50,307 nt of DNA from Desulfamplus magnetovallimortis (GTDB lineage: Bacteria; Desulfobacterota; Desulfobacteria; Desulfobacterales; Desulfobacteraceae): positions 6,016-56,322 of the forward strand of contig NZ_LT828563.1 of NCBI RefSeq assembly GCF_900170035.1. Direction: 5' to 3'. The notes below the pieces were generated by a model. That model saw only the letters and a list, made by a program, of their open reading frames with translations. It searched no databases and had not been told where the DNA came from. Position numbers and translations under genes: made by a program. Shown one piece after another: positions 253 through 49,489 of the stretch (the stretch's first letter is position 1; each line of letters starts with the position of its first letter).

Positions 253-1965
253 ATGAACATCAATGCAAGTATCATTGATCAGCAATTGACGGGTATTCTT
301 GAGAAGAATCCGGAATGGGTCGATCATTTTGGAAAAGATGAAAATAGAAAGCGCTCTGCTGCCTTTATTTTGCTATGCATGGCAAAAAGCCTGGATATTT
401 CATTGGAAGAGAGCGTTGAGCTTCTGACCGAAGGGGGGAATGATGCCGGTGTTGATGGGCTGCACATTGGGGAAGTGGAAGATGGAGAGTTTCTTGTAAC
501 CATTTTTCAAGGAAAGTATAAAATTAAAGATTTAAGCGGAGTCGCGAATTTTCCTGAAAATGGCGTGCAAAAAGCGGTCAATACAGTTCAGGTACTGTTT
601 GATCCGTTTCGAAAAGTTACATTGAATGAACGCATTGCGCCAAAGATTGAAGAGATACGCTCATTGATTCGTGACGCATTTATTCCAAAGGTTCGGGTTA
701 TCCTCTGTAATAACGGTGCCGCGTGGAATGATACAGCTCGGCAATGGATTGATGAAATTAAAAAGGATTTTCCGGAGAAGGTCCATTTTTTCCATTTTAA
801 TCATGACTCCATTGTAAATATACTGCAAAAGCCCAAAAAAGTTGACGCGACGTTGCATTTAAACGGCCCAATTATTGTGGAAGATATGAATTACATGCGT
901 GTCCTGGTGGGTCGGATTTCCGTTCACGCCATATCTCGGTTGTTTGAAGAACATGGGGATCGTTTGTTGCAGAGAAACATCAGGCGATACCTTGGCTTGC
1001 ACAGTAATCGGGTTAATATGGCCATCCATGACACCCTTTGTTCGGATAAATCAGATAAATTTTATTTTTACAACAATGGTATTACTGTTGTCTGTGACAA
1101 GTTTGATTACAATGCTTTTCAGAAAGCTGACTATCACGTAAAGACGGTCAATATGCAGGTGATCAATGGGGGACAAACCTGCAAAACCATCCATCAGACC
1201 CTTAAATCACACGGCCCTGATATAGTCGGTGAATCTGCTTATGTCATGATTCGTATCTATCAAATGGCAGATGAGAATAAGGATTTTGTAAATGATATTA
1301 CTTACGCCACAAACAGTCAGAATCCGGTGGATTTAAGGGATCTTCATTCAAACGATGAAGTGCAGAAAAAGTTAGAGATTGATTTTTCCGGCTTAGGGTT
1401 TACATATAAGCGTCAAAAAGATGAGAGTAGTGCCGGAGCCAATGTTATATCAAGTTTAACCGTGGCAGAGGCTGTGCTGGCCGTTTGGCGGGAGAAGCCT
1501 CACCATGCAAAGTTTCGGCGGAAGGAACACTTTGGAAAGCTCTATGAAGAGATCTTCAATACGTTAAGCGCTGCACAGGCGATCATTGCCACACGAATTT
1601 TCAGAAAAGTTGAAAATGAACGAAAGCGTCCTTCCAGTGATAACCCACCTCAATTTTTGCCCTATGGGTCACATTATATTGCCATGATGATTGGGCGTTT
1701 CTTATTACAAGCGCATGGTATCGCTATCATGGAGTTATCCCATCGTAATTTTGCAGAGATGAATACGCTTCTGGATGAGCGCTTTGCCACATACCATGGG
1801 CAAGCTTGTGAAAGCATCTCCCAGGCACTGAAAAAGTGCTATGGAGATCGCGTGATTTCATTGCAACAACTATCCGCTACTTTCAGGCGTGGTGATCTGC
1901 TTGAAATGCTGAAACCTCACCCTGATCCTTTCTTAATACTGTCTGAATCAGGATGCCCAGGATAA
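253..1965 (+). CDS. AIPR-family abortive phage infection protein
   Basis: The product is about 570 residues and resembles AIPR (abortive infection phage resistance) proteins, which are thought to act as nucleases in antiviral defence. The N-terminal part shows a restriction-endonuclease-like pattern: GGNDAGVDG with D64 and D68, then FQGKYK with Q86 and K88, as in PD-(D/E)XK folds. The AIPR-typical segments FYNNGITVV and QVINGGQTCKTIH follow. I chose ATG 253 because GGAG at 240-243 lies 9 nt upstream; a GTG at 193 is in frame but would translate a hairpin. The last residues (SESGCPG) and the TAA at 1963-1965 are encoded by a dispersed palindromic repeat, so the natural C-terminus may have been replaced. 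It stands alone, with no visible partner. Family call is firm; the defence role is inferred from the family. Confidence 0.85.
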   Translation: MNINASIIDQQLTGILEKNPEWVDHFGKDENRKRSAAFILLCMAKSLDISLEESVELLTEGGNDAGVDGLHIGEVEDGEFLVTIFQGKYKIKDLSGVANFPENGVQKAVNTVQVLFDPFRKVTLNERIAPKIEEIRSLIRDAFIPKVRVILCNNGAAWNDTARQWIDEIKKDFPEKVHFFHFNHDSIVNILQKPKKVDATLHLNGPIIVEDMNYMRVLVGRISVHAISRLFEEHGDRLLQRNIRRYLGLHSNRVNMAIHDTLCSDKSDKFYFYNNGITVVCDKFDYNAFQKADYHVKTVNMQVINGGQTCKTIHQTLKSHGPDIVGESAYVMIRIYQMADENKDFVNDITYATNSQNPVDLRDLHSNDEVQKKLEIDFSGLGFTYKRQKDESSAGANVISSLTVAEAVLAVWREKPHHAKFRRKEHFGKLYEEIFNTLSAAQAIIATRIFRKVENERKRPSSDNPPQFLPYGSHYIAMMIGRFLLQAHGIAIMELSHRNFAEMNTLLDERFATYHGQACESISQALKKCYGDRVISLQQLSATFRRGDLLEMLKPHPDPFLILSESGCPG

Positions 1966-2071
1966 CCAGGATTTACAGGATAAAAATCTTGAGCATCCTG
2001 TAAATCCTGGTTATCCTGATTCAGACAAATACAATAAATGCCAAAAAAGCCAGCAAGATGTCGATTTTGAG
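1941..2071 (+). repeat. dispersed palindromic element, copy 1 (left arm degenerate)
   Basis: The core runs from GTCTGAATCAGGA (1941-1953) to its exact inverse TCCTGATTCAGAC (2014-2026). Between them are 9-nt units of the form CAGGATNNN on the left and their complements on the right. The right outer arm ends with TGTCGATTTTGAG at about 2059-2071, as in the other copies. The left outer arm is not recognisable because the AIPR coding sequence is there. The rest of the gap to 2232 has nothing I can assign. Confidence 0.85.
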
Positions 2072-4690: not shown

Positions 4691-4843
4691 TTGGTTCTAA
4701 TTTCGGCCAATGTTAAACTTTGTGAGGCTGTCTGAATCAGGATACCCAGGATTAACAGGATAAGGCAGGATTAAGTAAGTATCCTGAACATCTTTTTTAT
4801 CCTGGTTATCTTGATTCAGACAAATGGCCGAAATTAGAACCAA
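4691..4843. repeat. dispersed palindromic element, copy 2, with different outer arms
   Basis: The core (4730-4821) has the family's GTCTGAATCAG start and inverse end, with one mismatch (TTGATTCAGAC on the right). Its outer arms differ from the other copies: TTGGTTCTAATTTCGGCCA at 4691-4709 is the perfect inverse of 4825-4843. The total palindrome is 153 bp. It fills the gap between hepT and the TPR lipoprotein gene and could fold into a long mRNA stem. Confidence 0.85.
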
Positions 4844-4884
4844 CCCCAACTTCGACTTTAAGTCCGTATTAAAGGAAAACTTTT

Positions 4885-8919: not shown

Positions 8920-8935
8920 TAACCGGAACGATTAG

Positions 8936-9365
8936 ATGAAAATAAAACTCTATAACGACATAGTCTTCAAATGGGTATCGATCATCTGATAAACCAGCCA
9001 ATGAACTTGAAGAGTAGAGCTATTACCTCGCCAACGACCAGGATAATAGAGCACCTCTGGATAGCAGAGTCAGCCATAACCATGCCATCAGGGAGGTACA
9101 CGAAATGCTTCAGACATTCACAAAAGATGAGCATCTCCGGGAGCAGTATCGCGTTCAGGAAGAGTTTATACGTGTTCAGCGTACCGAACGGTCATTGCTT
9201 AGAAAAGCCAGAGAGGAAAAAGAGGCTGCTTTAATAGAAAAGGAAAAAGAGCGCAAGGAAAAAGAACTTATGAAGCAAAAATCAATTGATTTCATGCTGC
9301 AAAAAGGTTGTACACCAGAACAGATTTCCGAGATATTGGGGATTCCGTTAAACCAGGTGCAATAA
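8936..9365 (+). pseudogene. Rpn-family nuclease gene, copy 1, internally deleted
   Basis: The first 14 codons (MKIKLYNDIVFKWV) are identical to those of the copy at 9623. A deletion of about 470 bp then joins base 8975 to the downstream region, and the frame stops at a TGA right after the junction. The 3' part (DEHLREQYRVQEEF to PEQISEILGIPLNQVQ) remains open in another frame. Rpn/PDDEXK-family transposase-like proteins are DNA nucleases that promote recombination. This copy carries one 42-bp unit encoding EKEAALIEKEKERK; the other copy has two. Confidence 0.85.
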
Positions 9366-9407
9366 CCTTTTCAGCCTCATTTTTTAGTGCAGGGAACTTT
9401 TACTTAT

Positions 9408-9579
9408 TCAAATCCGACACCAATGCTCTTTTGAGTCTTGTCACTACTGTCAGAATCAGGATGCCCAGGATGATAATGATTTACAGGATAAAAATCCTGA
9501 GCATCCTGCAAATCCTGGTTATCCTGATTCAGACAAATGCAATAAATGCAGATAAAGCAAACAAGATGTGGATTTTGAG
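9408..9579 (+). repeat. dispersed palindromic element, copy 3
   Basis: Full-length copy: left arm TTCAAATCCGACACC, core GTCAGAATCAGGA (one mismatch) at 9449 to TCCTGATTCAGAC ending 9534, right arm TGTGGATTTTGAG ending 9579. It lies directly 3' of Rpn copy 1 and has been duplicated together with it. Confidence 0.88.
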
Positions 9580-9622
9580 TAATTATGCAAAGTAGAATTT
9601 TTTGTTTTTCTGGAATGATTAG

Positions 9623-10563
9623 ATGAAAATAAAACTCTATAACGACATAGTCTTCAAATGGGTATTTGGCAGGGAGAAAGAGACCGGCCCTCTGTTGTCG
9701 CTTCTGAATGCAGCAACAAACTCCCCCAAGCGTTTTTCAGATGTCCAGATTTTGAACCCATTTGATGCAACCAGACCGTATAAAAATGAAAAACAGGGCA
9801 TCCTTGATATTCGTGGCAGGGAGAGCAACACCAAGGAGTGGTTTGATCTTGAAGTTCAAGTGATAGTAAGTGACATATTCCCCCAGCGCTCCAAATACTA
9901 TCTTGCCGGTATGTACCGTGATCAACTGGAAAAGAGTTCTGATGCCAATTATGATCAACTGAAGCCCTGCTACGGCATTCATTTTCTTGTTGAAACGCTG
10001 TTTGACTCAAAAGAGGACGCGCCGTTCTGGTATAATCACTTTTCAATGCTCAACACCCGCTCATATAAGCCTCTGGCAGATCACTGGCATCTGTATTATA
10101 TTGAGCTTAAGAAATTTATGACCTGCTTCAGAATCGAGCATCTGATAAACCAGCCAATGAACTTGAAGAGTGGAGCTATTACCTCGCCAACGACCAGGAT
10201 AATAGAGCACCTCTGGATAGCAGAGTCAGCCATAACCATGCCATCAGGGAGGTACACGAAATGCTTCAGACATTCACAAAAGATGAGCATCTACGGGAGC
10301 AGTATCGCGTTCAGGAAGAGTTTATACGTGTTCAGCGTACCGAACGGTCATTGCTTAGAAAAGCCAGAGAGGAAAAAGAGGCTGCTTTAATAGAAAAGGA
10401 AAAAGAGCGCAAAGAAAAAGAGGCTGCTTTAATAGAAAAGGAAAAAGAGCGCAAAGAAAAAGAACTTATGAAGCAAAAATCAATTGATTTCATGCTGCAA
10501 AAAGGTTGTACACCAGAACAGATTTCCGAGATATTGGGGATTCCGTTAAACCAGGTGAAATAA
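9623..10563 (+). pseudogene. Rpn-family recombination-promoting nuclease, copy 2, frameshifted
   Basis: Residues 1 to about 165 (MKIKLYNDIVFKWVFGRE to LYYIELKKF) match the N-terminal PD-(D/E)XK nuclease domain of Rpn/transposase-like proteins, with ILDIRGRESNTKEWFDLEVQ containing the D...ExQ active-site pattern. At about 10117-10120 the frame shifts; the correct continuation (DLLQNRASDKPANELEEWS) is in the frame ending at 10563. That tail includes a charged coil, a duplicated 42-bp unit, and the C-terminal EQISEILGIPLNQV helix. The ORF ending at 10390 beyond the shift is nonsense. The gene is probably inactive unless the shift is a sequencing error. Confidence 0.82.
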
Positions 10564-10605
10564 CCTTTTCAGCCTCATTTTTTAGTGCAGGGAACTTTTA
10601 CTTAT

Positions 10606-10755
10606 TCAAATCCGACACCAATGCTCTTTTGAGCCTTCTCACTACTGTCAGAATCAGGATGCCCAGGATGATAATGATTTACAGGATAAAAATCCTGAGC
10701 ATCCTGCAAATCCTGGTTATCCTGATTCAGACAAATGCAATAGATGCCGATAAAG
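10606..10755 (+). repeat. dispersed palindromic element, copy 4 (right arm decayed)
   Basis: Nearly identical to copy 3 from the left arm through the core (10647-10732), because both belong to the same duplicated block. Its right outer arm breaks down after GATAAAG at about 10755, which probably marks the edge of the duplication. The remaining gap to 10840 has nothing assignable. Confidence 0.85.
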
Positions 10756-10839
10756 TACAGTAATATCAATTGAACAAGCCATTGTTACCTTAAGGGTTGT
10801 GATTTCCAGTGAATGGCTAATATGCCCGTAAGAGGACTA

Positions 10840-13932: not shown

Positions 13933-15015
13933 ATGAAGCTCAGAAAAGCATTGGATAAAGCAAGGGATGCAAGGGAGAAACTGGATGTTGAACCCGCCAT
14001 GTCACCTGAAGAGAGAATAGATGTTGTGGAAGTCATGGAACATGCTGATGAAGGTGGGGGTGCTGTGAATAATTCACAGCCTGAAAATATTGATTTTGCT
14101 ATAAAACATGATGCCCAGGATGAAGTGGGAAGAGCTGGGAATAACTCCCAATCAACCCAGCAAAAAACTGAAAACAAGACGCAACTAATTCAGCAAAAAA
14201 CTGAAAACAAGACGCAACCAATTCAGCAAAAAACTGAAAACAAGACGCAACTAATTCAGCAAAAAACTCAAAACAAGACGCAACCAATTCAACAAAACAA
14301 CCCACAACCAGGGGGGCAAAAACATGAAACATGGAAAAAACCTGTTTATTCAAGTTCCCAGACCTTCAGGATAAATCCTTCTGTTGTGGCTGCAAACAGA
14401 GGAGTATGTATAAGTCCGGCTGCTGACGAGATCCAGCGCTACAAGATATTAAGAACCCGCATCCAGCAGCGCAGTGAAGGCAGTACCCTCAATACTATAA
14501 TGATTACAAGTGCCAGAAAGAAAGAGGGCAAGACAGTAAATGCAATAAATATGGCCTTTACCTTTGCACGGGCCATGAACCAGACAGTTCTTCTTGTTGA
14601 TTGTGACTTTACAGGCCAGGATGTTCACAAGTATCTTGGTATTGACAGTCAATTCAGCCTGATTGATTACTTCATGGAAGAGGTGCCTCTAAATGAACTG
14701 ATCATCTGGCCAGGTATTGACAAACTTACCATAATCTCCGGTAACCGCACTGTACTGGATGGTTCGGAGATTCTCTCATCCCATGCAATGGCAGAGCTTG
14801 TGAGGGAGATGAAAACCCGTTACGATGACCGTTATGTGCTCTTTGATGCTCCTCCGGTTCTGGATCATGCCGAGGCTATATCAATGGCTCCCATGATGGA
14901 TGGCATTATCATGGTGGTGGAAGCAGGTGTCACCCCGGAGCAGGATGTTAAAAAGGCGGTTTCCATGTTGCCAAAGGAAAAATTTCTTGGTTTTGTGCTT
15001 AACAAGCAGGAGTGA
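13933..15015 (+). CDS. BY-type tyrosine autokinase of the EPS locus
   Basis: A 360-residue cytoplasmic ATPase/kinase, partner of the chain-length protein 15 bp upstream. The kinase domain starts near residue 150 with RILRTRIQQ-like YKILRTRIQQRS; Walker A is ITSARKKEGKT, Walker A' is VLLVDCDF, and Walker B is YVLFDAPPVL. It ends VLNKQE without the usual tyrosine cluster, as in PEP-CTERM-type kinases. Between the N-terminal helix and the kinase domain lies a low-complexity linker with four 11-residue repeats (QQKTENKTQLI), encoded by 33-bp DNA repeats at 14158-14289. The linker is probably disordered. Confidence 0.88.
   Translation: MKLRKALDKARDAREKLDVEPAMSPEERIDVVEVMEHADEGGGAVNNSQPENIDFAIKHDAQDEVGRAGNNSQSTQQKTENKTQLIQQKTENKTQPIQQKTENKTQLIQQKTQNKTQPIQQNNPQPGGQKHETWKKPVYSSSQTFRINPSVVAANRGVCISPAADEIQRYKILRTRIQQRSEGSTLNTIMITSARKKEGKTVNAINMAFTFARAMNQTVLLVDCDFTGQDVHKYLGIDSQFSLIDYFMEEVPLNELIIWPGIDKLTIISGNRTVLDGSEILSSHAMAELVREMKTRYDDRYVLFDAPPVLDHAEAISMAPMMDGIIMVVEAGVTPEQDVKKAVSMLPKEKFLGFVLNKQE
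14158..14289 (+). repeat. in-frame minisatellite, 4 x 33 bp, in the tyrosine kinase gene
   Basis: Four units of CAGCAAAAAACTGAAAACAA plus 13 more bases, nearly identical, differing mainly at CTA/CCA and GAA/CAA codons. Unit length is a multiple of three, so copy number can change without breaking the gene. Confidence 0.9.
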
Positions 15016-18956: not shown

Positions 18957-18993
18957 GAGCCAGTTAACAAATTATAACCAAGTTAACAAAACA

Positions 18994-19065
18994 AGAAAAG
19001 CGCCAAAACTGCTGCGAAGTAGTGACGGAAAGCCACGGATCTCCAGAAGATAGCCGGGTTGCCTT
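18994..19065 (+). ncRNA. c-di-GMP-I (GEMM) riboswitch aptamer
   Basis: The conserved elements of the GEMM aptamer occur in order: GCGCCAAAACTGCTGCGAAG (P1b loop with GCGA tetraloop region), TGACGGAAAGCCACGGATCT (the usual GACGCAAAGCC with C-to-G at one base), and AGATAGCCGGGTTGCC (tetraloop receptor and P1a closing strand). GEMM RNAs sense c-di-GMP, and a subclass senses cGAMP. The downstream gene encodes a PilZ protein, a c-di-GMP receptor, which fits. The 3' strand of the aptamer is shared with the terminator that follows, so ligand binding should decide between aptamer and terminator. Confidence 0.88.
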
Positions 19066-19088
19066 GAATAAGGTAGCCCGGCTTTTTT
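19052..19088 (+). terminator. riboswitch-controlled intrinsic terminator
   Basis: AGCCGGGTTGCCTT (19052-19065) pairs with AAGGTAGCCCGGCT (19070-19083) around GAAT, with six T from 19083 to 19088. The 5' arm is the 3' strand of the GEMM aptamer, so stabilising the aptamer should prevent the hairpin and turn expression on. This direction is inferred from the overlap. Confidence 0.85.
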
Positions 19089-25910: not shown

Positions 25911-26687
25911 TCAGGAATTTTGTTTTAAGAGATACTCCCTGACCTCCGGATTATAGAAATCCATGCCGTCATCCCGCATTGCCATTGCCATTATGTTGTT
26001 TCTGGTAAGATATCTGATATTTTCGTCAGAGAGATGGAGGGATGCAAATACAGGAATGAGGGTTTTTTCGCCAATAACAGGAAACCACGATGGCAGTTCA
26101 GGAATGAGTTTGATAAAATCAGATATATACTCTGTCCTTGCAGTTGCTTTTGTCTCAACAACAAAGATAAATTCTGGTGTCTCTGCAACTACGTCAAACT
26201 CCCTTCGGGAGCTACCGTCGGTTTTGACAGTTCTTACCCGTACTGCAAAATAATTGAACTCCTCCACCTGAAAGTACTCCCTTGCCACACCGCCCATTCC
26301 GGGGGCAACAATATCTTCCACAATGGTTCCCATCTTGTTGGCAAGGTCTCCCCACTGTTTATTCATGCGCTTGCGGTCAGCCTCGCTGTCGGTTTTAAAC
26401 TGTTTCATCTCGTTCTTGAACTCTTTCATCTCGTCCTTGAAGTCTTTCATCTCATCCTTGAACTCTTTCATCTCGTCCTTGAAGTCTTTCATCTCGTTCT
26501 TGAACTCTTTCATCTCGTCCTTGAAGTCTTTCATCTCATCCTTGAAAGCCTTCATTTCCCATTGAAATGATTTGTTCTGATTCACAAGATCCTTGATGGC
26601 CATATCAGTTTTCATGGATTGATATGCCAGTTCCATCATGGCCATTTCAAGGTCACTTACACGTTCTTTTAATGCTGGTTCTCCCAT
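25911..26687 (-). CDS. coiled-coil protein with a PD-(D/E)XK nuclease-like domain
   Basis: 258 residues. Residues 1-105 are a long coiled coil, whose centre is a run of heptads (FKDEMKE, FKNEMKD) encoded by 21-bp DNA repeats at about 26400-26563. Residues 110-258 resemble the DUF3782/DUF1626-type domain: REFDVVAETPEFIFVVETKA has the D...E-x-K order of PD-(D/E)XK nucleases, and VIGEKTLIPVFASLHLS follows. It stands alone. A DNA-related role is plausible, but substrate is unknown. Confidence 0.75.
   Translation of the reverse strand: MGEPALKERVSDLEMAMMELAYQSMKTDMAIKDLVNQNKSFQWEMKAFKDEMKDFKDEMKEFKNEMKDFKDEMKEFKDEMKDFKDEMKEFKNEMKQFKTDSEADRKRMNKQWGDLANKMGTIVEDIVAPGMGGVAREYFQVEEFNYFAVRVRTVKTDGSSRREFDVVAETPEFIFVVETKATARTEYISDFIKLIPELPSWFPVIGEKTLIPVFASLHLSDENIRYLTRNNIMAMAMRDDGMDFYNPEVREYLLKQNS
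26400..26563 (-). repeat. 21-bp tandem repeats encoding heptads
   Basis: About eight 21-bp units alternate between versions reading, on the plus strand, CTTGAACTCTTTCATCTCGT and CTTGAAGTCTTTCATCTCGT. Each unit is one heptad of the coiled coil, so gain or loss lengthens the rod by a full turn pair without a frameshift. Confidence 0.85.
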
Positions 26688-26716
26688 GATTTGCGCCTCC
26701 CAAAATTAGTAAGATA

Positions 26717-26890
26717 CTCAAGATCGACATCTTATTGCTTTTTTATAGTTATTCCATTTGTCTGAATCAGGATAACCAGGATGGATAGGATGTTCAGGAT
26801 ATAGAATCCTGCCTTATCTTTGTTAATCTTGGGTATCCTGATTCAGACAGTATTAACAAAGCTCAAAAAATCATAGGTGTCGTCTTTGAG
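26717..26890 (-). repeat. dispersed palindromic element, copy 5 (reverse)
   Basis: Complete 174-bp copy on the minus strand. Plus-strand ends are CTCAAGATCGACATCTTA (left) and AGGTGTCGTCTTTGAG (right, ending 26890); the core spans 26760-26848. The AAATGG side, the element's 3' end, is at the left, so orientation is opposite to the other six copies. Confidence 0.9.
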
Positions 26891-27006
26891 AAGATAGTGG
26901 TCCGGATAAAATGATCAGATTTTGATATGGATAGATTGACATATTTGTCATTGAAATTCAATTGTTTTTTGCTATCTTTATTGGGCATATTTCATAGAGT
27001 CGCCAA

Positions 27007-29585: not shown

Positions 29586-30767
29586 TCACGATATCTCCTC
29601 TTTAAGCATACAGCAGGCAATTCTGTGGCATGGTGTACCATCTCCGTGATAACTAATATTACCAGGCTGTATCAGCTTGTTCATGACACACCCTTCTGGG
29701 ATTTCAAGTCCAAAGAGATCAGCTTCATTTATTTTATCAGTTTGTACAAGGGTATTGTTTTGGATTTCCAGACTGTGAACAGGGTAGTCTTCGCAGATGG
29801 GACAGCGATAGACACGGCCATTGGGAAAAATAAAATAGTTGTCAGCAACAACCCCTGCACACTGGAATGGTTCACCGTGTTCCAGAAACACTTTGGGGTA
29901 GGTGACAGTAATCCCAAGCTTTGCAACCCGTGCTGCCACTTTTGGCACAATCTCCAACCATTGCTCCATTGAGAGCTGCAGAAAATGTTTGTCAGATGGT
30001 TGGTTATCAGGAAGATCTAAGTTATCAGGAAGATCTAAGTTATCAGGAAGATCTAAGTTATCAGGAAGATCTAAGTTATCAGGAAGATTTAAGTTATCAG
30101 GAAGCTCTAAGTTATTCTTTTTTTCTGAGTAGGATGATTCTGAAGAGGGGGGATAGAAATTGGAAAGTGTTTCAGCAGAATTGCCTCTGATGCCTATTAC
30201 CTGTATGAAAAAGCGCTGAATACCAAGTTCTTTTACAAGGTCAGGCATCATTGAAAGTTCATGCAGGTTTTCACTGCTTACAGTGTATATCATGGAGGTT
30301 GAAAAACCGGCTGCAACAGCTTTTTTGACTCCGGCAATAACGGTTTGGTAGCACCATTTGCCCCTTATGGAGTCGTTGGTTTTTTCTGTGGCTCCATCAA
30401 GTGAGAAACTTATGAAATCAACTTCATCAGGGGAAATTTTGTTCAGTATATCGTGGAACAGATAGCCATTTGTGTCTATGGTTATGGATTTGAATCCAAG
30501 TGATCTTGCCTCTTTTATTGCCAGCAATAGGTCTGGATGCAGCGTTGGCTCTCCTCCAAGAAAAATTACATTGATCTGACTGCATTTTTCAGCAAAGAGA
30601 TTGAGCCATTGCCGGATGGTCTCTATTGAGAGGGTATTTTCTCCATGCTGGCCAGGATTTATATAACAGTGTTTGCAGGATAGATTGCATTTTGTCAGGA
30701 TATGAAAAAAAAGATTGGATGAGTCCTTTGAAAATGCAACGGTTTTTTTTTCATAATATTCTTTCAT
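29586..30767 (-). CDS. radical SAM protein with SPASM-like C-terminus
   Basis: About 393 residues. The SAM/4Fe-4S motif CNLSCKHCY is at residues 27-35, followed by VIFLGGEPTLHPDLL and SLDGATEKTNDSIRG, typical of the peptide-modifying and twitch/SPASM subgroup. Later cysteines (FQCAGVVADNYFIFPNGRVY then RCPICEDYP, and CHRIACCML) would bind auxiliary clusters. ATG 30767 is used; GTG 30785 is also in frame, and neither has a good ribosome-binding site. Between the two halves sits an in-frame repeat of six-residue units (NLDLPD). The substrate is unknown; no peptide precursor gene is recognised beside it. Confidence 0.85.
   Translation of the reverse strand: MKEYYEKKTVAFSKDSSNLFFHILTKCNLSCKHCYINPGQHGENTLSIETIRQWLNLFAEKCSQINVIFLGGEPTLHPDLLLAIKEARSLGFKSITIDTNGYLFHDILNKISPDEVDFISFSLDGATEKTNDSIRGKWCYQTVIAGVKKAVAAGFSTSMIYTVSSENLHELSMMPDLVKELGIQRFFIQVIGIRGNSAETLSNFYPPSSESSYSEKKNNLELPDNLNLPDNLDLPDNLDLPDNLDLPDNLDLPDNQPSDKHFLQLSMEQWLEIVPKVAARVAKLGITVTYPKVFLEHGEPFQCAGVVADNYFIFPNGRVYRCPICEDYPVHSLEIQNNTLVQTDKINEADLFGLEIPEGCVMNKLIQPGNISYHGDGTPCHRIACCMLKEEIS
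30003..30110 (-). repeat. in-frame minisatellite, 6 x 18 bp, in the radical SAM gene
   Basis: Six units of GTTATCAGGAAGATCTAA on the plus strand, the last two with single changes. They encode NLDLPD units on the minus strand between the TIM-barrel and the SPASM-like region. The insertion is hydrophilic and probably a loop. Confidence 0.92.
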
Positions 30768-32460: not shown

Positions 32461-32635
32461 CTCAAAGTCGACACCTATGATCTTGTAAGCCTTGTCAACA
32501 CTGTCTGAATCAGGATTCCCAAGATTAACAGGATAAGGCAGGATTATCTATCATGAACATCTTTTTCATCCTGGTTATCCTGATTCAGACAAATTCAGTA
32601 ACTACCGAAAAAGCCATCAAAGTGTCGATTGTGAG
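32461..32635 (+). repeat. dispersed palindromic element, copy 6
   Basis: Complete copy: left end CTCAAAGTCGACACCTATGA, core 32503-32590, right end TGTCGATTGTGAG. It ends 4 bp before the carB stop codon region (32640) and is very similar to copy 7, which lies upstream of carA in the same orientation. Confidence 0.92.
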
Positions 32636-37070: not shown

Positions 37071-37244
37071 CTCAAAATCGACACCTATAACATCTTGAAC
37101 CTTGTCAATACTGTCTGAATCAGGATTCCCAAGATTAACAGGATAAGGCAGGATTATCTATCCTGAACATCCTATCCATCCTGGTTATCCTGATTCAGAC
37201 AAATGCAATAACTACTGATAAAGCAGTAAGATGTCGATTTTGAG
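37071..37244 (+). repeat. dispersed palindromic element, copy 7
   Basis: Complete 174-bp copy: left end CTCAAAATCGACACCTATAA, core 37113-37200, right end TGTCGATTTTGAG. The outer ends are a 12-bp inverted repeat (CTCAAAATCGACA). With copy 6 it brackets carAB in direct orientation. Confidence 0.93.
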
Positions 37245-43095: not shown

Positions 43096-46000
43096 ATAAT
43101 TTAGATATTGCAAAAGAAAAATTTAATCAGAGATATTCTGATTTATTAAAAGCCTTTGAAGAGAAAGGCGATAAACTTGTCTTTCCGGAAGAGTACCTAT
43201 CTGTAACGGAACTTGAAACGGTTTTGACATATAGTGAATTTGCAGCCTCAACCTTTTCCCGTCATCCGTGGATTCTTGTTGATCTTGCTGTTTCAGGCGA
43301 CCTTGACCGTTCCTATGGCATGGGACATTTTACCTCGCTTTTGAATGACGCATCCCTGCTAAAAAGAGCCTTTGCAGTATTGAAAAAATCTGATTCTGTT
43401 GATCTTTCCAAAGTATCTGTTGATCTACCCGAAGCAGAGGAAATCTTAATTGATAATGAAGATGATCTTCAAAAACTGCTTGTCATGACCCGTATGAGGG
43501 AGATGCTTAGAATTGCATGGCGTGATCTCACAGGAAAGGCAGAGCTTCAGGAGACACTCAGGGATTTGTCTGAGTTGGCTGAAGCATGTGTTGACAAAGG
43601 GATTTCCTTTCTTTATGATAAACTTTGTTCTACTTGTGGAACGCCCGTTGACAGCCAGGGCAGTCCACAGGCTCTGGCTGTGCTGGGCATGGGAAAACTT
43701 GGTGCCGGAGAATTGAACTTCTCATCAGATATTGATCTCATCTTTGCCTATCCCGAAGATGCTGCTTTTCAGGGAAAATGCCAGTTTCATACTACTGGAG
43801 AGTTTTTCACAAAAATGTGCAGGGATTTTTTAAAACTGTTTGACTCTTCTGCAGGCAGGGAACTCCTGTTTCGTGTTGATACACGTCTTCGCCCCTTTGG
43901 TGCCAATGGCCCCCTTGCCATGAGCTTTGATTCAATGGAGGAGTATTATCAGACCCAGGGTCGTGAGTGGGAGCGATATGCCCTGATAAAGGCACGCCCT
44001 GTTGCCGGAGATCTTGTTGCAGGAGATCAGCTTTTAAAGCGGCTAAACCCATTTGTTTACAGACGATATTTTGACTATGGCTCCTTTGATTCCCTTAGGG
44101 ATATGAAACGGAGAATTTCTCTTCAGGTCAAGGATAAGCGGTATCGTCACAATATAAAACTTGGTGCTGGCGGTATTCGTGAGATTGAGTTTTTCGGCCA
44201 GGTGTTTCAGATGATCAGGGGAGGGGTTGAACCTGAATTCCAGGAGCGCAAAATCCTTAAAATTTTAAATCTTCTGGTGGAGAGGGATTGTATTGACCGT
44301 AAAACAGGAGATGAGCTTACATCTGCATATGTTTTTCTCAGAAATGTGGAGCACAGGCTTCAGGAGCAAAGGGATCAGCAGACCCATGACCTTCCGGTAA
44401 AAGAAGAAGAGAAGTTGCTGCTTGCACGTTCAATGGGCTTTGATGACAAAGAGCTGTTTTTTTCTGAACTTACAGCTCACATGGCAGCGGTTCATGAGCA
44501 TTTCAGACATCTGTTTGTTTCAGAAGAAGATGAAGAGATAAATGGAGTTGATAGCAACAGGAACTCCAGCAATGATTTTGCCAATGATAACTCCGTGTGC
44601 AGCAGAGATGAACTTAAGTATCTCTGGCAGAACATCAATGATCCCCAGCACGGTTTTACAGGTAGCCGTATTTCCGGATTTGCTGATGCAAATGCTGTAT
44701 GCGGACTTCTTAAAAATCTTGCAGAGCACCCCAATACAAAAAAACTTACCAGCAATGGCCGTAAACGTCTGGATCGTCTCATCCCTGTACTTGTACAAAA
44801 GGCAGGAGAGGGCGAAAACCCTGAGATCGTTCTTCAGAGGCTTGTTGACCTTATCATTACCATTGAGAGGCGCACCTGTTATCTATCACTTTTGAATGAA
44901 AAACCCTTAGCCCTTGATAATCTTGTGACTTTGGCATCAAAAAGCCCATGGATCATATCCTTTCTTTCAAGACATCCGGCTCTTCTTGATGAACTTATGG
45001 ATCCTGTTGCTCTCTATAAACCACCGGACAGAGTACAGATAGAAGCTTCCCTTGCCCGTCGTATGGCACATATTCCCATTGATGACTTTGAGTTTCAGCT
45101 TGAAGAGCTATGTATATTCAAACAGGTCATGACCCTTAGGGTTGCGGCTGCCGATATAAGCGGTAATTACCCCTTAATGAAGGTAAGTGACAGATTGACT
45201 GATATAGCAGAGGTTGTCATGGCAAGGGTTATTGAGATTGCATGGCACCACACTGTTGCAAAATATGGCCTTCCAACATTTGACAATGATCATGGAAATA
45301 GTGATGTTGACAACGATCATGGAAATAGTGATGTTGACAACGATCATGGAAATAGTGATGTTGACAATGATCATGGAAATAGTGATGTTGACAATGATCA
45401 TGGAAATAGTGATGTTGACAATGATCATGGAAATAGTGTCGTTACATGGTCTGAAGCACCGGGGAACGGTTACCAGGCTCTAAGCGCTTTTACTTCACCT
45501 GGATTTGCGGCAATAGCATATGGAAAGCTCGGAGGCATTGAGCTTGGCTACAAGTCTGATCTTGACATGGTCTTTATCCACTCTGCATCGGAAGGTTTTA
45601 CAAAAGGTGCGAGACGCAGCATTGAAAATATAAGATTCTATACATTCCTTGGGCAGAGAATCATAAATGCCTTAACTCTTCATACACAGGCCGGAACCCT
45701 ATACGAGGCAGATATGCGCCTTCGGCCAAGTGGTCAATCCGGCATGATTGTAAGTCATATTGATGCATTCAGCGAATATATACAAAATGAGGCATGGACA
45801 TGGGAGCACCAGGCAATTATTCGGGCACGTCCCATTGCAGGAGATCCTATTCTTCAGAAGCGGTTTAACCAAATCCGCAATGGAATTCTCATTATCAGAC
45901 GAGAGCCTGAATTTCTGAAAAACGAAGTTCGCACCATGCGGGAGAAGATGAGAGCGGAGCATGAGAAAAACGAACCATTAAAGATTGATGACGATACAGA

Positions 46001-46325
46001 GCTTTTTGATCTGAAGCAGGGCAGGGGAGGTATTATAGATATTGAGTTTCTGGTGCAGTATCTTGTGCTGAGACACGCCTTTGATCATCCACCCCTTACC
46101 CGTTGGACAGACAATGTAAGGTTAATTGAAACCCTTGCCAGAGAAAATATATTGACAGAAGATGATGCCAGGCTTTTAACAGAAGGCTATCTGAAGCTGA
46201 GACAGAAGATTCATCATCTGAATCTGCAGGAAAAAGAGAAGAAAATTTCCGTTGAGTTTTTTGGGGAGACAGGAAAGAAAATCTCTGAACTTTTTGAAAG
46301 TGTGCTTTATGGAAATAGTATTTGA
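43092..46325 (+). CDS. glnE: glutamine synthetase adenylyltransferase/adenylyl-removing enzyme
   Basis: 1077 residues; GlnE adds and removes AMP on glutamine synthetase according to nitrogen state. The two nucleotidyltransferase halves are both present: GMGKLGAGELNFSSDIDLIF (about residues 198-217, deadenylylating) and YGKLGGIELGYKSDLDMVFI (about 810-830, adenylylating). Just before the second lies an in-frame insertion of six nine-residue repeats (DNDHGNSDV, about 731-784) that normal GlnE lacks. It also exceeds the usual 950 residues. The start GTG 43092 overlaps the PIN relic stop. The 3' end has been tandemly copied beyond the stop codon. Confidence 0.93.
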   Translation: MNNLDIAKEKFNQRYSDLLKAFEEKGDKLVFPEEYLSVTELETVLTYSEFAASTFSRHPWILVDLAVSGDLDRSYGMGHFTSLLNDASLLKRAFAVLKKSDSVDLSKVSVDLPEAEEILIDNEDDLQKLLVMTRMREMLRIAWRDLTGKAELQETLRDLSELAEACVDKGISFLYDKLCSTCGTPVDSQGSPQALAVLGMGKLGAGELNFSSDIDLIFAYPEDAAFQGKCQFHTTGEFFTKMCRDFLKLFDSSAGRELLFRVDTRLRPFGANGPLAMSFDSMEEYYQTQGREWERYALIKARPVAGDLVAGDQLLKRLNPFVYRRYFDYGSFDSLRDMKRRISLQVKDKRYRHNIKLGAGGIREIEFFGQVFQMIRGGVEPEFQERKILKILNLLVERDCIDRKTGDELTSAYVFLRNVEHRLQEQRDQQTHDLPVKEEEKLLLARSMGFDDKELFFSELTAHMAAVHEHFRHLFVSEEDEEINGVDSNRNSSNDFANDNSVCSRDELKYLWQNINDPQHGFTGSRISGFADANAVCGLLKNLAEHPNTKKLTSNGRKRLDRLIPVLVQKAGEGENPEIVLQRLVDLIITIERRTCYLSLLNEKPLALDNLVTLASKSPWIISFLSRHPALLDELMDPVALYKPPDRVQIEASLARRMAHIPIDDFEFQLEELCIFKQVMTLRVAAADISGNYPLMKVSDRLTDIAEVVMARVIEIAWHHTVAKYGLPTFDNDHGNSDVDNDHGNSDVDNDHGNSDVDNDHGNSDVDNDHGNSDVDNDHGNSVVTWSEAPGNGYQALSAFTSPGFAAIAYGKLGGIELGYKSDLDMVFIHSASEGFTKGARRSIENIRFYTFLGQRIINALTLHTQAGTLYEADMRLRPSGQSGMIVSHIDAFSEYIQNEAWTWEHQAIIRARPIAGDPILQKRFNQIRNGILIIRREPEFLKNEVRTMREKMRAEHEKNEPLKIDDDTELFDLKQGRGGIIDIEFLVQYLVLRHAFDHPPLTRWTDNVRLIETLARENILTEDDARLLTEGYLKLRQKIHHLNLQEKEKKISVEFFGETGKKISELFESVLYGNSI
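45282..45443 (+). repeat. in-frame minisatellite, 6 x 27 bp, in glnE
   Basis: Six units of GACAATGATCATGGAAATAG plus TGATGTT, near-identical (AAC/AAT in units two and three; GTC in the last). Encodes an acidic, flexible loop directly before the adenylylation motif. Confidence 0.95.
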
Positions 46326-46404
46326 AAGTGTGCTTTATGGAAATAGTATTTGAAAATGTGCTTTATGGAAATAGTTTTTGAAAGTGTGCTTTATGGAAAT
46401 AATG
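46293..46404 (+). repeat. 4 x 28-bp tandem repeat copying the 3' end of glnE
   Basis: The first unit is the last 28 bp of glnE (TTTGAAAGTGTGCTTTATGG then AAATAGTA); three more copies follow the stop codon, which lies at the start of unit two. The unit is not a multiple of three, so each copy shifts frame. The rest of the gap to 46564 shows no ORF; a good ribosome-binding site (AAAGGAG) precedes the next gene. Confidence 0.95.
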
Positions 46405-46564
46405 TTTTATGGCACTTACGGTATGGATTTAGCAGTTATTCCGACAATGAAATCCATCAACTGTGAAGTGTAAGTTAACAAATTAGGGAGCCGGAAATTA
46501 GGGAGTTTGATGAAATCCGGAGCCTCTAACTGTTTAGAACGTTTTTATAAAGGAGATAACATAG

Positions 46565-48301
46565 ATGACTTTAATAAAGTGGGAAACACCCTTCTGGCCT
46601 GAAGGTGTGGCACATGATGTAACCGATTACAACTATCCTTTGACAGAGCTTCTGGATAATGCTGCCCGCAAATATCCTGAAAAAGTATATACCATTTTTA
46701 ATGATGCCACCCGGACATTTGCCCAGGTTAAGGATACTTCCGACAGGATTGCAAATTTTCTTGCAGGGCATGGAATTAAAAAAGGGGACAGGGTTGCAAT
46801 TTTTCTTCCCAATATTCCACAGTTTCCGGAGATTTTTTTTGGTATTCTCAAAGCAGGTGCAGTGTGCGTAAACTGTAATCCGGTCTATACTCCGGCAGAG
46901 CTGAACCACCAGTTGTCAGACTCTGGAGCAAAGATAGTTTTCTGCATGGATCACCCGGTCTTTTACAAAAGCGCAGTAAAGGCCATTGAAGATACTGATG
47001 TTGAAACTGTTATTATTTGTAATATTAAATCATACCTTCCAAAGCTTAAGGCTATTCTGGGAAGCCTTCTTGGAAAAATTCCCAAGGCAGATCACCATGA
47101 ACCAAATCACTTTATGTTTGATGAGATTGTTGCAACTTCTGCCCCAACTCCGCCTGCAATAACCATAAATCCCCATGAGGATACCGCTTTAATGCTTTAT
47201 ACGGGCGGCACAACCGGTGTTCCAAAGGGTGCTGAACTCACCCACGTCAATTTTACATATGATCTGGAAGCAGCAGTTGAATATTTCAGGCTTGTTCATG
47301 ATAAAAACGGAAAAGCTGAAAAGTTGCGTTATGGAGGTTTTCATACCTTTCTTGGGGTGTTGCCCTGGTATCACGTATTTGGAATAAACAGTACATTGCT
47401 GCTTGCTGCAAAAACCGGAAGCCGTTTGATATGTGTGCCTGATCCAAGGGCTGGAAATCCACCATTTACCGAGGTTCTTACAATTGTTCAGAAACATAAA
47501 CCAACCTTCATGACAGCAGTTCCCACCATTTTTGTTGCTTTTACCAACCATCCGCTGATTGATAAATTTGATATATCTTCACTTATGGGATGCCTTTCAG
47601 GAGGAGCACCTCTTCCGCCAGAGGTGTGCAGGCAGTTTGAGGATAAGACAGGTGCCATAATTTTTGAAGCCTATGGCCTGACAGAGACAGCACCTGCGGT
47701 CTGCTGCAATCCTCCTTTTAAGGAGACCCGAAAGATCGGTTCCATAGGTTTTCCCATTCCCGGCACAGATGTCAAGATTCTGGATACAGAGACAGGAACA
47801 AAGGAGATGCCAAGGGGAGAGGATGGAGAGATCGCCGTTTGTGGCCCCCAGGTTATGAAAGGTTACTGGAAGCGTCCTGATGCCAATGAGGAGGTTTTCC
47901 GTGAATTTGAGGGAAGCCGTTATTTTCTCACAGGAGATATAGGAAATATTGACGCAGATGGCTATATCACCATAACAGATCGTAAAAAAGATATGATTAT
48001 TGTAAGTGGTTTTAATGTATATCCAAGGGATGTTGAGGATATCCTTTATACCCATCCTGCGGTTGAGCTTACCGCTGTTGTCGGACTTCCTGACAAGAGA
48101 AGCGGAGAGATGGTTAAGGCATATGTCAAGTTAAAGGATGGAGCTTCTGTAACCATTGAGGAGCTTATGCAGTTCTGCAAGGAGAACATGGCCGGATATA
48201 AACGTCCAAGGGAGATTGAGATAAGGGATGAGATTCCTGTCTCCAATGTTGGTAAGGTTTTAAGACGTGCATTGCGAGATGAAGAAGCAGCCAAAAGCTG
48301 A
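46565..48301 (+). CDS. acyl-CoA ligase (long/medium-chain type)
   Basis: 578 residues of the AMP-forming ligase family, which activates fatty acids to acyl-AMP and then acyl-CoA. Motifs: MLYTGGTTGVPKGAELTH (P-loop), FEAYGLTETAPA, GDIGNIDADGYITITDRKKD, IIVSGFNVYPRDVED and VSNVGKVLRR with the catalytic lysine. N-terminal YPLTELLDNAARKYPEK is common in FadD-like ligases. Chain-length preference cannot be read. The last residues DEEAAKS are the first unit of a tandem repeat; one extra C (GCCAAAAGC versus GCAAAAGC in later copies) probably shortened the original end. Confidence 0.9.
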   Translation: MTLIKWETPFWPEGVAHDVTDYNYPLTELLDNAARKYPEKVYTIFNDATRTFAQVKDTSDRIANFLAGHGIKKGDRVAIFLPNIPQFPEIFFGILKAGAVCVNCNPVYTPAELNHQLSDSGAKIVFCMDHPVFYKSAVKAIEDTDVETVIICNIKSYLPKLKAILGSLLGKIPKADHHEPNHFMFDEIVATSAPTPPAITINPHEDTALMLYTGGTTGVPKGAELTHVNFTYDLEAAVEYFRLVHDKNGKAEKLRYGGFHTFLGVLPWYHVFGINSTLLLAAKTGSRLICVPDPRAGNPPFTEVLTIVQKHKPTFMTAVPTIFVAFTNHPLIDKFDISSLMGCLSGGAPLPPEVCRQFEDKTGAIIFEAYGLTETAPAVCCNPPFKETRKIGSIGFPIPGTDVKILDTETGTKEMPRGEDGEIAVCGPQVMKGYWKRPDANEEVFREFEGSRYFLTGDIGNIDADGYITITDRKKDMIIVSGFNVYPRDVEDILYTHPAVELTAVVGLPDKRSGEMVKAYVKLKDGASVTIEELMQFCKENMAGYKRPREIEIRDEIPVSNVGKVLRRALRDEEAAKS

Positions 48302-48494
48302 AGTTTTAAGATCTAATTGATGTATGAAGAAGCAGCAAAAGCTGAATTTTTAAGACCTGATTGATGTATGAAGAAGCAGCAAAAGCTGAATTTTTAAGAC
48401 CTGATTGATGTATGAAGAAGCAGCAAAAGCTGAATTCTTAAGACCTAATTGATGTATGAAGAAGCATCAAAAGCTGAAGTTTTGAGACCTGATT
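48278..48494 (+). repeat. 44-bp tandem repeat with TGATG-coupled micro-ORFs
   Basis: Five units (the first 41 bp, then four of 44 bp) copy the 3' end of the acyl-CoA ligase gene. Each full unit contains ATG ... TGA encoding MYEEAAKAEFLRPD or a close variant (starts 48320, 48364, 48408, 48452), and each TGA shares its A with the next ATG. The last TGA shares its A with ATG 48496 and lies 4 bp before the rhomboid start ATG 48500, whose first bases (GATGGATGAAAAA) resemble another degenerate unit. Confidence 0.93.
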
Positions 48495-48499
48495 GATGG

Positions 48500-49489
48500 A
48501 TGAAAAATCTGGAAAAAACTGAAATTGTGCCTCTTCCGGAGTTGAATATTTCCCTCTCCGGCCTGGAGAGGGAAAAAGCTGACTTGATTGCTCTTGTGTT
48601 GAGTTCACAGGGTATTGAGGTCTTCTGGGAAAAGCAGTCAGAGGGGCTGTATGATCTGATAATTGATTGTGCACAATATCCCCAGGCTGAAAAGGCACTG
48701 CAAAAGTTTTATCTGGAGAACCCTTTTGTTGATCTGACAGGTGAAAAAAATCAACTCCCGCCGGAAACCTCCCTTCCTGTTATTACAGGGCAGGCAAAGA
48801 TTGTTGTATTGTTTGTCGCCCTTGCTCTTTCTGTTGTTCATTTCTCTCTGATTTATCATGGCAACCATAATAATGTGGTTATGAATTACGGGGCATCTGC
48901 CCTTTATATTTTGCAGGGGCAATATTATCGCATATTTACGGCAATGATGCTCCACTCAAATTTAGGGCATCTTGCCGGCAATGTTGTGGGTTTGCTTGTT
49001 TTTGGAACTCCTCTTTGCAGCATAGCAGGTGCATTTCGGGGGATGCTTTTGATTATACTGTCCGGCGCAACAGGTAATCTTGTTAATGCCTGGATGCATC
49101 GTCAGGCTCATCTATCCATAGGTGCCTCAACTGCTGTCATGGGTGCCATCGGGATTTTGACTGCATGGCAGGTGGCAGGTAAAATCATCATAACATACAA
49201 GGATGAATTACCGGTAAAAACTCATGGCCGGAGTTCTGCCACCCCTGAGTATGGAGATATTGTATCTATTTCCACGGTAAAAAACAGGAATGATAATCAT
49301 CAATTAAAAATTGATATAAAACCCTCTGCTCTTTTTCCTTTAGCTGCCGGTGCCGCTGTGGCAGGCATGCTGAGCGGCGGTGAAAATACAGATATCTCTG
49401 CCCATGTTTTTGGTTTTTTGTGCGGGGTTGTCATTGGCCTTGTCTATTTGATCTTTAAGGAATTTAAATTTTTCAAGGAGAATTCATGA
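48500..49489 (+). CDS. rhomboid-family intramembrane serine protease
   Basis: 329 residues. A cytoplasmic N-terminal region of about 95 residues includes a DUF2007-like part (VLSSQGIEVFWEKQSEGLYD). Membrane segments start at about 100. Signatures: HSNLGHLAGNVVG (H152, H157, N161), catalytic serine in SIGASTAVMG (S210) and catalytic histidine in SAHVFGFLCG (H302). Between them, residues about 236-275 form a hydrophilic stretch (YKDELPVKTHGRSSATPEYG, VSISTVKNRNDN) not expected in rhomboids; most of it is encoded by a copy of a dispersed repeat. The substrate is unknown. The ATGA overlap couples it to the next gene. Confidence 0.88.
   Translation: MKNLEKTEIVPLPELNISLSGLEREKADLIALVLSSQGIEVFWEKQSEGLYDLIIDCAQYPQAEKALQKFYLENPFVDLTGEKNQLPPETSLPVITGQAKIVVLFVALALSVVHFSLIYHGNHNNVVMNYGASALYILQGQYYRIFTAMMLHSNLGHLAGNVVGLLVFGTPLCSIAGAFRGMLLIILSGATGNLVNAWMHRQAHLSIGASTAVMGAIGILTAWQVAGKIIITYKDELPVKTHGRSSATPEYGDIVSISTVKNRNDNHQLKIDIKPSALFPLAAGAAVAGMLSGGENTDISAHVFGFLCGVVIGLVYLIFKEFKFFKENS
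49218..49284 (-). repeat. TTTTACCGTGG dispersed repeat, copy D, inside the rhomboid gene
   Basis: On the minus strand it reads TTTTTTACCGTGGAAATAGA, TACAAT, then CAGGGGTGGC and GGCCATGAG. It is translated in the rhomboid frame as SSATPEYGDIVSISTVK. The forward strand of copy B would translate, in the corresponding frame, as FATPDHENNVSISTVK. Confidence 0.72.

Follow-up and report, generated by a model that had tools for sequence, protein, structure and literature searches.

What kind of element is the 174-bp sequence at positions 26717-26890 of this stretch of Desulfamplus magnetovallimortis DNA, and do its ends and its hairpin have a common origin? The window, by which we mean the whole stretch of 50,307 nucleotides (C24:6016-56322 of the organism's own genome, G000, a 6.68-Mb assembly of 108 contigs that is 97.3% complete), contains seven related sequences, each built around a 9-nt-periodic hairpin, which the first-pass annotation described as a MITE or a REP/RAYT-like element. 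When comparing these copies with others in the same genome, in its relatives and in other phyla, we came to regard a two-layer composite as the probable answer, with an IS-derived MITE on the outside and, on the inside, a solo hairpin of the type found at GxxExxY nuclease genes that has been captured and amplified. The features of the window that concern this question are as follows.

26711-26716, no strand: left copy of the target duplication AAGATA, read from the sequence
26717-26890, minus strand: whole 174-bp element; on the plus strand its B end lies at the left and its A end at the right
26717-26729, plus strand: B-side terminal inverted repeat CTCAAGATCGACA; 17 positions of the element's first 19 nt match the right end of a sister-species IS
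26760-26848, minus strand: inner 9-nt-periodic hairpin core, GTCTGAATCAGGAT...ATCCTGATTCAGAC
26878-26890, minus strand: A-side terminal inverted repeat, TGTCGTCTTTGAG on the plus strand; 15 of the element's last 16 nt match the left end of a sister-species IS
26891-26896, no strand: right copy of the target duplication AAGATA, read from the sequence
1941-2026, plus strand: hairpin core of a copy with its left end lost
2059-2071, minus strand: right terminal repeat of the copy at 1941
4691-4845 (outer limits approximate), plus strand: different inverted-repeat element with ends GGTTTGGTTCTAATTTCGGCCA / TGGCCGAAATTAGAACCAAC and an inner hairpin at 4730-4821
9407-9579, plus strand: element with both ends present but diverged; core 9449-9534
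10605-10754 (right limit approximate), plus strand: duplicate of the copy at 9407, right end lost; core 10647-10732
32461-32635, plus strand: complete 175-bp element without exact target duplication; core 32503-32590
37071-37244, plus strand: complete 174-bp element without exact target duplication; core 37113-37200

All seven cores were found where the first-pass annotation had placed them (1941, 4730, 9449, 10647, 26760, 32503 and 37113). The common order of parts that it gave for all seven, with CTCAAA-type ends on both sides, holds for four copies (9407-9579, 26717-26890, 32461-32635 and 37071-37244) and fails for three: the copy at 1941 is without its left end, the copy at 10647 is without its right end, and the ends of the copy at 4730 differ from the main type (GGTTCTAATTTCGGCCA). 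At 26717-26890, the 13-bp terminal ends have one (left) and two (right) mismatches to the consensus with AAGATA on both sides, which on inspection of the flanks is the only exact 6-bp duplication among the four two-ended window copies. The core of this copy (26760-26848), when folded as RNA, has a predicted energy of -46.3 kcal/mol on the plus strand (z -8.0) and -37.4 kcal/mol on the minus strand (z -7.6). Further copies, for which a genome-wide search had been proposed, are abundant. The left-end pattern CTCAAARTCGACACCTATGA has 434 matches with up to three mismatches across the whole G000 genome (221 forward and 213 reverse), compared with a single match for the reversed-pattern control. 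A census sample of 1,430,307 bases (C1:1-800000, C2:1-200000, C3:1-200000, C4:1-180000 and the window) contained 116 two-armed cores, a number that scales to about 540 in the genome.

Several other features of the window lie beside these copies. An AIPR-family ORF (PF10592, 193-1965) terminates within the copy at 1941: its stop codon falls in the hairpin core, and the element thereby encodes the C-terminus of the protein. The left end of this copy is missing. Tandem minisatellites occur at 26353-26600 (period 21 nt), 45253-45468 (27 nt), 46265-46432 (28 nt), 48292-48511 (44 nt), 29985-30128 (18 nt) and 14130-14294 (33 nt), and several of the six overlap ORFs; the genome may be generally prone to unit expansion. 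A c-di-GMP-I riboswitch is located at 18992-19066 (57 bits).

For the outer layer, the reading as a MITE is supported by the ends, the 6-bp duplications, nested insertions, insertion sites outside long ORFs and a sister-species IS with matching ends. Threshold classification of the 116 cores in the 1.43-Mb sample gave a main-element end on at least one side for 105 and both ends, with 13-bp terminal inverted repeats, for 80. Among these 80 complete copies, 43 are flanked by an exact 6-bp duplication, 8 more by one with a single mismatch and 8 others by an exact 7-bp duplication, leaving 21 with neither a 6-bp duplication (up to one mismatch) nor an exact 7-bp one; shuffled partners gave a mean of 0.96 6-bp duplications and a maximum of 5 in 200 shuffles. 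The duplicated target sites approximate TANNTA. Only one of the 80 copies has both flanks within an ORF of at least 120 aa, and such ORFs, counted in any frame, make up 0.85 of the sample. Six candidates for nested insertion into another hairpin were identified, four of which have an exact duplication on inspection of the flanks (including TGTTAA at C4:165746 and TATCTT at C3:48263); the interrupted hairpins serve as known empty sites. The element is short, with a length of 170-179 bp in 47 of 67 outer-end pairs, and has no transposase inside. Its ends, A (CTCAAARTCGACACCT...) and B (CTCAAAATCGACATCTTAT...), are unlike one another beyond the 13 bp in an alignment of 70 copies.

The end pattern is present in 10 of 39 relatives' genomes (G000 included), 9 of the 10 being within the genus. 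Among ten loci from genomes other than G000, hairpin-bearing copies occur in G001 (L072), G002 (L068) and G008 (L065), and G003 (L067) contains an element of 173 bp that lacks the hairpin motif but has these ends, with TAACTA exactly duplicated. IS-derived bacterial MITEs such as those of Thiomargarita, as described in sections of PMC4853749, are likewise short and non-coding, with terminal inverted repeats, a target duplication, many copies and mostly intergenic positions; Correia elements are mentioned there as another bacterial example. The element studied here differs from these in having a separable 9-nt-periodic hairpin module that is also found outside the MITE and in other phyla.

An IS transposase with matching ends, which the first-pass annotation had suggested looking for, was found in the sister species G005 with both ends and in G003 with one. 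The G005 copy (L069:164-1520) is a 1357-bp IS whose ends are of the CTCAAAAACGACA type and whose minus strand encodes a PF01609 transposase of 401 aa. Its left end matches the MITE A end at 15 of 16 nt and its right end matches the B end at 17 of 19 nt with the correct polarity, these matches being short (BLAST E 0.006); a target duplication of its own is absent. The G003 transposase is 92% identical to the G005 protein (residues 14-401), and its IS copy lies at a contig edge with a single end at hand. The transposase matches the general domain PF01609 at 44.2 bits (cut-off 23) and scores below the curated cut-off in all nine NCBIfam models that it matched, IS701_3 being the best with 91.1 of 170 bits. 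The likely parent IS resembles the IS4/IS701 superfamily in its 401-aa DDE_Tnp_1 transposase and in the make-up of a 1357-bp element with matching ends, but lies near these families under each matched NCBIfam cut-off.

None of the G000 stretches searched contained the IS transposase. The best result of a protein-level search of G000 was a weak match (E 2.3e-5) with a broken frame. Unpaired convergent CTCAAAATCGACA ends (up to two mismatches, 400-4500 bp apart, 1.25 Mb of G000) formed six pairs, none with matching duplications, and the ORFs adjoining six odd ends, by reading, include no recognisable transposase. Six DDE_Tnp_1 matches in G000 were not bracketed by an end pair (up to two mismatches) in the stretches around each gene. 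As the IS transposase was not found in G000, the MITE family there may no longer move, its motor having seemingly been lost. In line with the description of the window as free of transposases, we found no DDE transposase with these ends there (10 of the window ORFs being compared with Pfam), but the Rpn-family gene at 9623-10390 is named 'putative transposase'.

The hairpin itself had been treated as part of the MITE. We found instead that it is a module of its own, which recurs in several phyla and is linked with GxxExxY nuclease genes. In its anatomy, the number of units varies among copies as had been described, in whole 9-nt steps (L057, L023:7421, L034:19143 and L197:3489), and the core foot GTCTGAATC stands on both sides. 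The NNN positions, which were said to stay paired, do not: in 100 cores of 84-92 nt from G000, spacers match their partners at 0.27, which is the level of chance, and hexamers match theirs at 0.58 in ungapped register, the folds showing helices interrupted by internal loops. Five folds, covering four window copies, gave long and strong stems (z from -5.6 to -11.2). Spacer covariation is absent in G000 (0.27 compared with 0.50 between arms taken from different copies, although the mixed orientations of the copies disturb this control) and weak in 32 foreign hairpins (0.50 compared with 0.45). In counts of exact patterns, the purine-rich arm comes first 22 times and second 0 times. The window hairpins had no match in Rfam at the gathering threshold.

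Within G000, we found the hairpin centred in GGTTCTAATTTCGGCCA-type outer repeats at window 4691-4845, C4:2052 and C1:552313 (core enlarged), in CTACTTTGTTA-type outer repeats at C1:107876, C1:323073, C2:138999 and C4:116764, and within joined ends of two types at C1:652250 and C1:541973. The duplications of the GGTTCTAATTTCGGCCA type are 8 bp by eye, exact at C1:552313 and matching at 7 of 8 positions at the other two. The core is thus found here in at least two further inverted-repeat types, and the MITE ends occur without it in a sister species; for these reasons we consider it a module separate from the MITE. A general rule by which hairpins insert into other inverted repeats was rejected: only 2 of 33 foreign hairpins have outer flanks that exceed all shuffles (mean score over the 33 of 7.7, compared with 6.0 for mismatched partners), indicating that capture by inverted repeats is not general.

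The sequence at the core end is also found in Cyanobacteria, Bacteroidota, Chloroflexota and Poribacteria. A scan of contigs for ATCCTGATTCAGACA returned at least 109 stretches, for 80 of which the first matches were inspected. In many of the inspected stretches the arms are of the CAGGAT/ATCCTG type and repeat every 9 nt; such arms occur in Dolichospermum, Anabaena, Pontibacter and other Bacteroidota and, among the matches listed, also in Dehalococcoidia, Caldilineaceae, Poribacteria, Beggiatoa and Desulfamplus. Two Desulfamplus records (L075 and L155) have the A-side sequence too, and some of the ATCCTGATTCAGACA matches listed are lone and lie within genes. In Dolichospermum, the loci returned by two DNA searches were too rearranged to yield a clean empty site of a solo hairpin; in the stretch inspected, G216 and G208 are without a hairpin where G056 and G048 have one, and the far flank differs too.

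Cyanobacterial loci also present some peculiarities of their own. In the loci inspected from Dolichospermum relatives (L292-L331), several hairpins are arrayed together with a GxxExxY gene, the arrays change fast, and other periodic repeats (CGCAGAGG and ACGAAGG) occur beside such arrays. Some cyanobacterial arms are broken by a short TAGCGTAGCGTGGCGCAAGCCATA-like palindrome (upstream of L131:6165-6683 and at L131:2829-2890), so that repeats are nested in repeats in cyanobacteria too.

With what is the hairpin associated outside the MITE? G000 has two GxxExxY genes. The one at C10:113469-113807 has CAGGAT arms both upstream and downstream, whereas the second, at C1:1040593-1040940, lies between copies of another 9-nt repeat, CACGGAAAG CACGGAAGG / TTCCGTGCT TTCCGTGAC. 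When these two proteins were used as queries, 4 of the 109 motif stretches listed proved to carry a GxxExxY ORF, in each case near the motif; in L120, the gene sits between the left and right arms of matching units, and the protein between the arms belongs to the GxxExxY family (TIGR04256 / PF13366 PDDEXK_3). Twenty motif genomes were chosen, 19 of which were searched for PF13366. It was present in 17 of these 19 compared with 54 of 148 genomes sampled from the organism's own phylum (Fisher p 1e-5, confounded by taxon).

To loci selected through the motif we can add loci selected independently of the hairpin, taken as the best-scoring one per genome from 30 of the 54 phylum genomes with a match (one of them from G000). 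Excluding two at contig ends, 25 of the 28 testable phylum loci have inverted-repeat flanks above all 100 shuffles, compared with 0 of 29 for MazF/PemK controls under the same selection (30 loci, one at a contig end; Fisher p 3e-13). The same was found for 25 of 30 motif-genome loci; the other 5 of these, and 3 of the 28 phylum loci, do not exceed the shuffles. An earlier flank test (450 nt, 50 shuffles, 36 loci mostly chosen by the hairpin motif) had 29 of 36 above shuffles, and the G000 gene that failed it (L182) passed as L239 with gene bounds taken from the family match. Three-unit arms are common, for example ACCACGGAA CACACGGAA TACACGGAA in L247. Across 65 loci, identical 5-mers occur 459 times at a spacing of 9, 273 times at 8, 221 times at 10 and 90 to 160 times at the other spacings between 5 and 14. 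Base-by-base comparison of 150-nt flanks gives a modest peak at lag 9 (0.296 in the phylum sample compared with 0.246-0.283 at other lags, and 0.266 at 9 in the control).

In 23 aligned GxxExxY sequences, D68, E78 and K80 are invariant, which we take to be as expected of a working PD-(D/E)XK site. A sequence-profile search at E up to 1 found no solved relative, structure prediction from four sequences reached a mean pLDDT of 40.7, and a search of viral contigs with one GxxExxY protein as query gave no relative. In L084 and L111, the C-terminal tail of the GxxExxY protein consists of translated arm units (e.g. ...NNPENPKIIKS), which is possible since a 9-nt unit keeps the reading frame.

A strict 9-nt rule for assigning the arms to repeat classes failed to label 45 of 65 loci, and we changed to a rule allowing 9 or 10 nt, under which 27 remained unlabelled. 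The nuclease tree has a supported group of 19 rows that contains all but one of the 11 GGAT-class loci (of these 10, two are the same locus), together with 7 unlabelled and 2 TGAT-class rows. The GGAT loci of this group come from G000, Dolichospermum, Bacteroidota, Poribacteria and Dehalococcoidia; the second nuclease of G000 is far off on the tree and has its own different repeat. Repeat class changes 11 times along the tree compared with a shuffled mean of 21.2, with 0 of 500 shuffles as low (37 labelled of 64 rows, unlabelled rows being uncounted and L215 omitted as the same locus as L111, though counted in the tree grouping). Clustering in the phylum-only subset is weak (19 rows, 7 changes compared with 9.0, 32 of 500 as low). 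GxxExxY (TIGR04256/PF13366) is known as a protein family but little studied, and a full-text search of the open-licence literature by core sequence, arm sequences and family names gave no paper linking the nuclease or its family to such hairpin arms and no described function of the family; a passage of PMC8934634 mentions the family name incidentally. The association suggests that the hairpins and the GxxExxY nuclease are one unrecognised genetic element.

How do other explanations fare against these observations? The whole 174 bp could be a single MITE with a minisatellite-like expansion as its core, the likeness to GxxExxY flanks being convergence on simple 9-nt repeats. Unit number does differ by 9 nt, and a MITE with a minisatellite core is known: according to sections of PMC4596501, BrickBuilt of Porphyromonas gingivalis likewise combines MITE ends, a tandem-unit core, predicted stem loops, variable unit number and intergenic positions. 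BrickBuilt differs in its 23-nt direct repeats, its 19 copies in one strain and its presence in P. gingivalis and some P. gulae strains, with the word 'nuclease' occurring 0 times in the main text of that paper (PMC4596501), whereas the element here has 9-nt inverted arms, hundreds of copies and a core found in several phyla. We judge the single-MITE account unlikely. The GTCTGAATC foot and the CAGGAT units are not confined to this MITE but are also present in further outer elements of G000 and in other phyla, adjoining GxxExxY genes of one protein group, and the sister species has the MITE ends with the core absent. Also unlikely is that the hairpins are RNA or terminator-like regulators kept for their function, to which the gene of a GxxExxY nuclease, possibly RNA-acting, was merely attracted. 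Such regulators would agree with the strong predicted RNA hairpins, the location of copies almost always outside long ORFs and the 22 to 0 purine-first polarity, but not with the transposition scars and nested insertions, the unpaired NNN positions of G000 or the lack of Rfam matches for the window hairpins at the gathering threshold.

REP elements and REPINs, like the hairpins here, are abundant extragenic palindromes, and a REP/RAYT-like reading was one of those offered by the first-pass annotation. Under it, the element would move by single-strand transposition through a Y1 transposase, for which its palindromic form, high copy number, extragenic location and the four Y1 matches in the genome could be cited. 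The system is also alike in that, as parts of PMC3733652 describe, an enzyme gene is bracketed by the same abundant extragenic palindrome that occurs elsewhere in gene-less copies; the enzyme here is a PD-(D/E)XK (GxxExxY) protein rather than a tyrosine transposase and the arms are 9-nt-periodic. However, the hairpins of G000 flank no Y1 gene: the hairpin motif is absent from 14 kb around the best one, and lies at its nearest 2.5-5.9 kb from the other three. By eye, the aligned consensus contains no GTAG/CGTC tag (as defined in PMC3733652) at the core foot. Given in addition the DDE-type ends and duplications, we have abandoned this reading as highly improbable. The hairpin might also be moved by the gene type of the Rpn-family PD-(D/E)XK_2 protein (window 9623-10390) instead of GxxExxY, since MITE copies flank that gene on both sides and the Thiomargarita authors tied a MITE to PD-(D/E)XK_2 genes in a section of PMC4853749. 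The window has a tandem duplication of about 1.2 kb at 8925-10784, comprising the Rpn-family (PF12784, TIGR01784) gene and one MITE copy, with a partial second copy of the gene upstream. Both flanking copies belong to this duplication of gene and element, so their presence on both sides reflects one event, which makes an Rpn-type mover quite unlikely.

We therefore return to the composite of an IS-derived MITE with a GxxExxY-type hairpin inside, for which the best-supported mechanism is a cut-and-paste MITE carrying a captured hairpin as cargo. The outer layer is a MITE of about 174 bp that moved by cut-and-paste DDE transposition with 6-bp target duplication, its likely source and motor being the 1357-bp IS near the IS4/IS701 families (seen in one sister species, with the transposase in a second), which would have mobilised it in trans. 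The inner layer would be a gene-less solo copy of the hairpin type that brackets GxxExxY PD-(D/E)XK genes in several phyla. An inverted-repeat element of this genus may have captured such a hairpin, after which transposition would have multiplied it to several hundred copies. For the hairpin's own spread, the most economical account has the nuclease acting on DNA structures (cruciforms or hairpins) that its own arms form, with gene-less copies as the non-autonomous counterpart, so that solo hairpins would spread with it; we infer this from the clustering of repeat classes by nuclease clade.

More broadly, we tentatively propose that GxxExxY nucleases and their clade-specific 9-nt-periodic arms may constitute a new class of mobile or selfish DNA in many phyla, in which the nuclease would recognise the hairpin or cruciform of its own arms and solo hairpins would be non-autonomous, as REPs are to RAYTs, and could be taken up and multiplied by conventional transposons, of which the window would be an example. 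If right, the association assigns a testable role to a widespread nuclease family; it also offers a way to account for several kinds of 9-10-nt-periodic inverted repeat in Cyanobacteria, Bacteroidota, Chloroflexota and Desulfobacterota. The window itself represents a clear case of an element riding in an element, in which a MITE has multiplied a foreign-type hairpin into several hundred copies.
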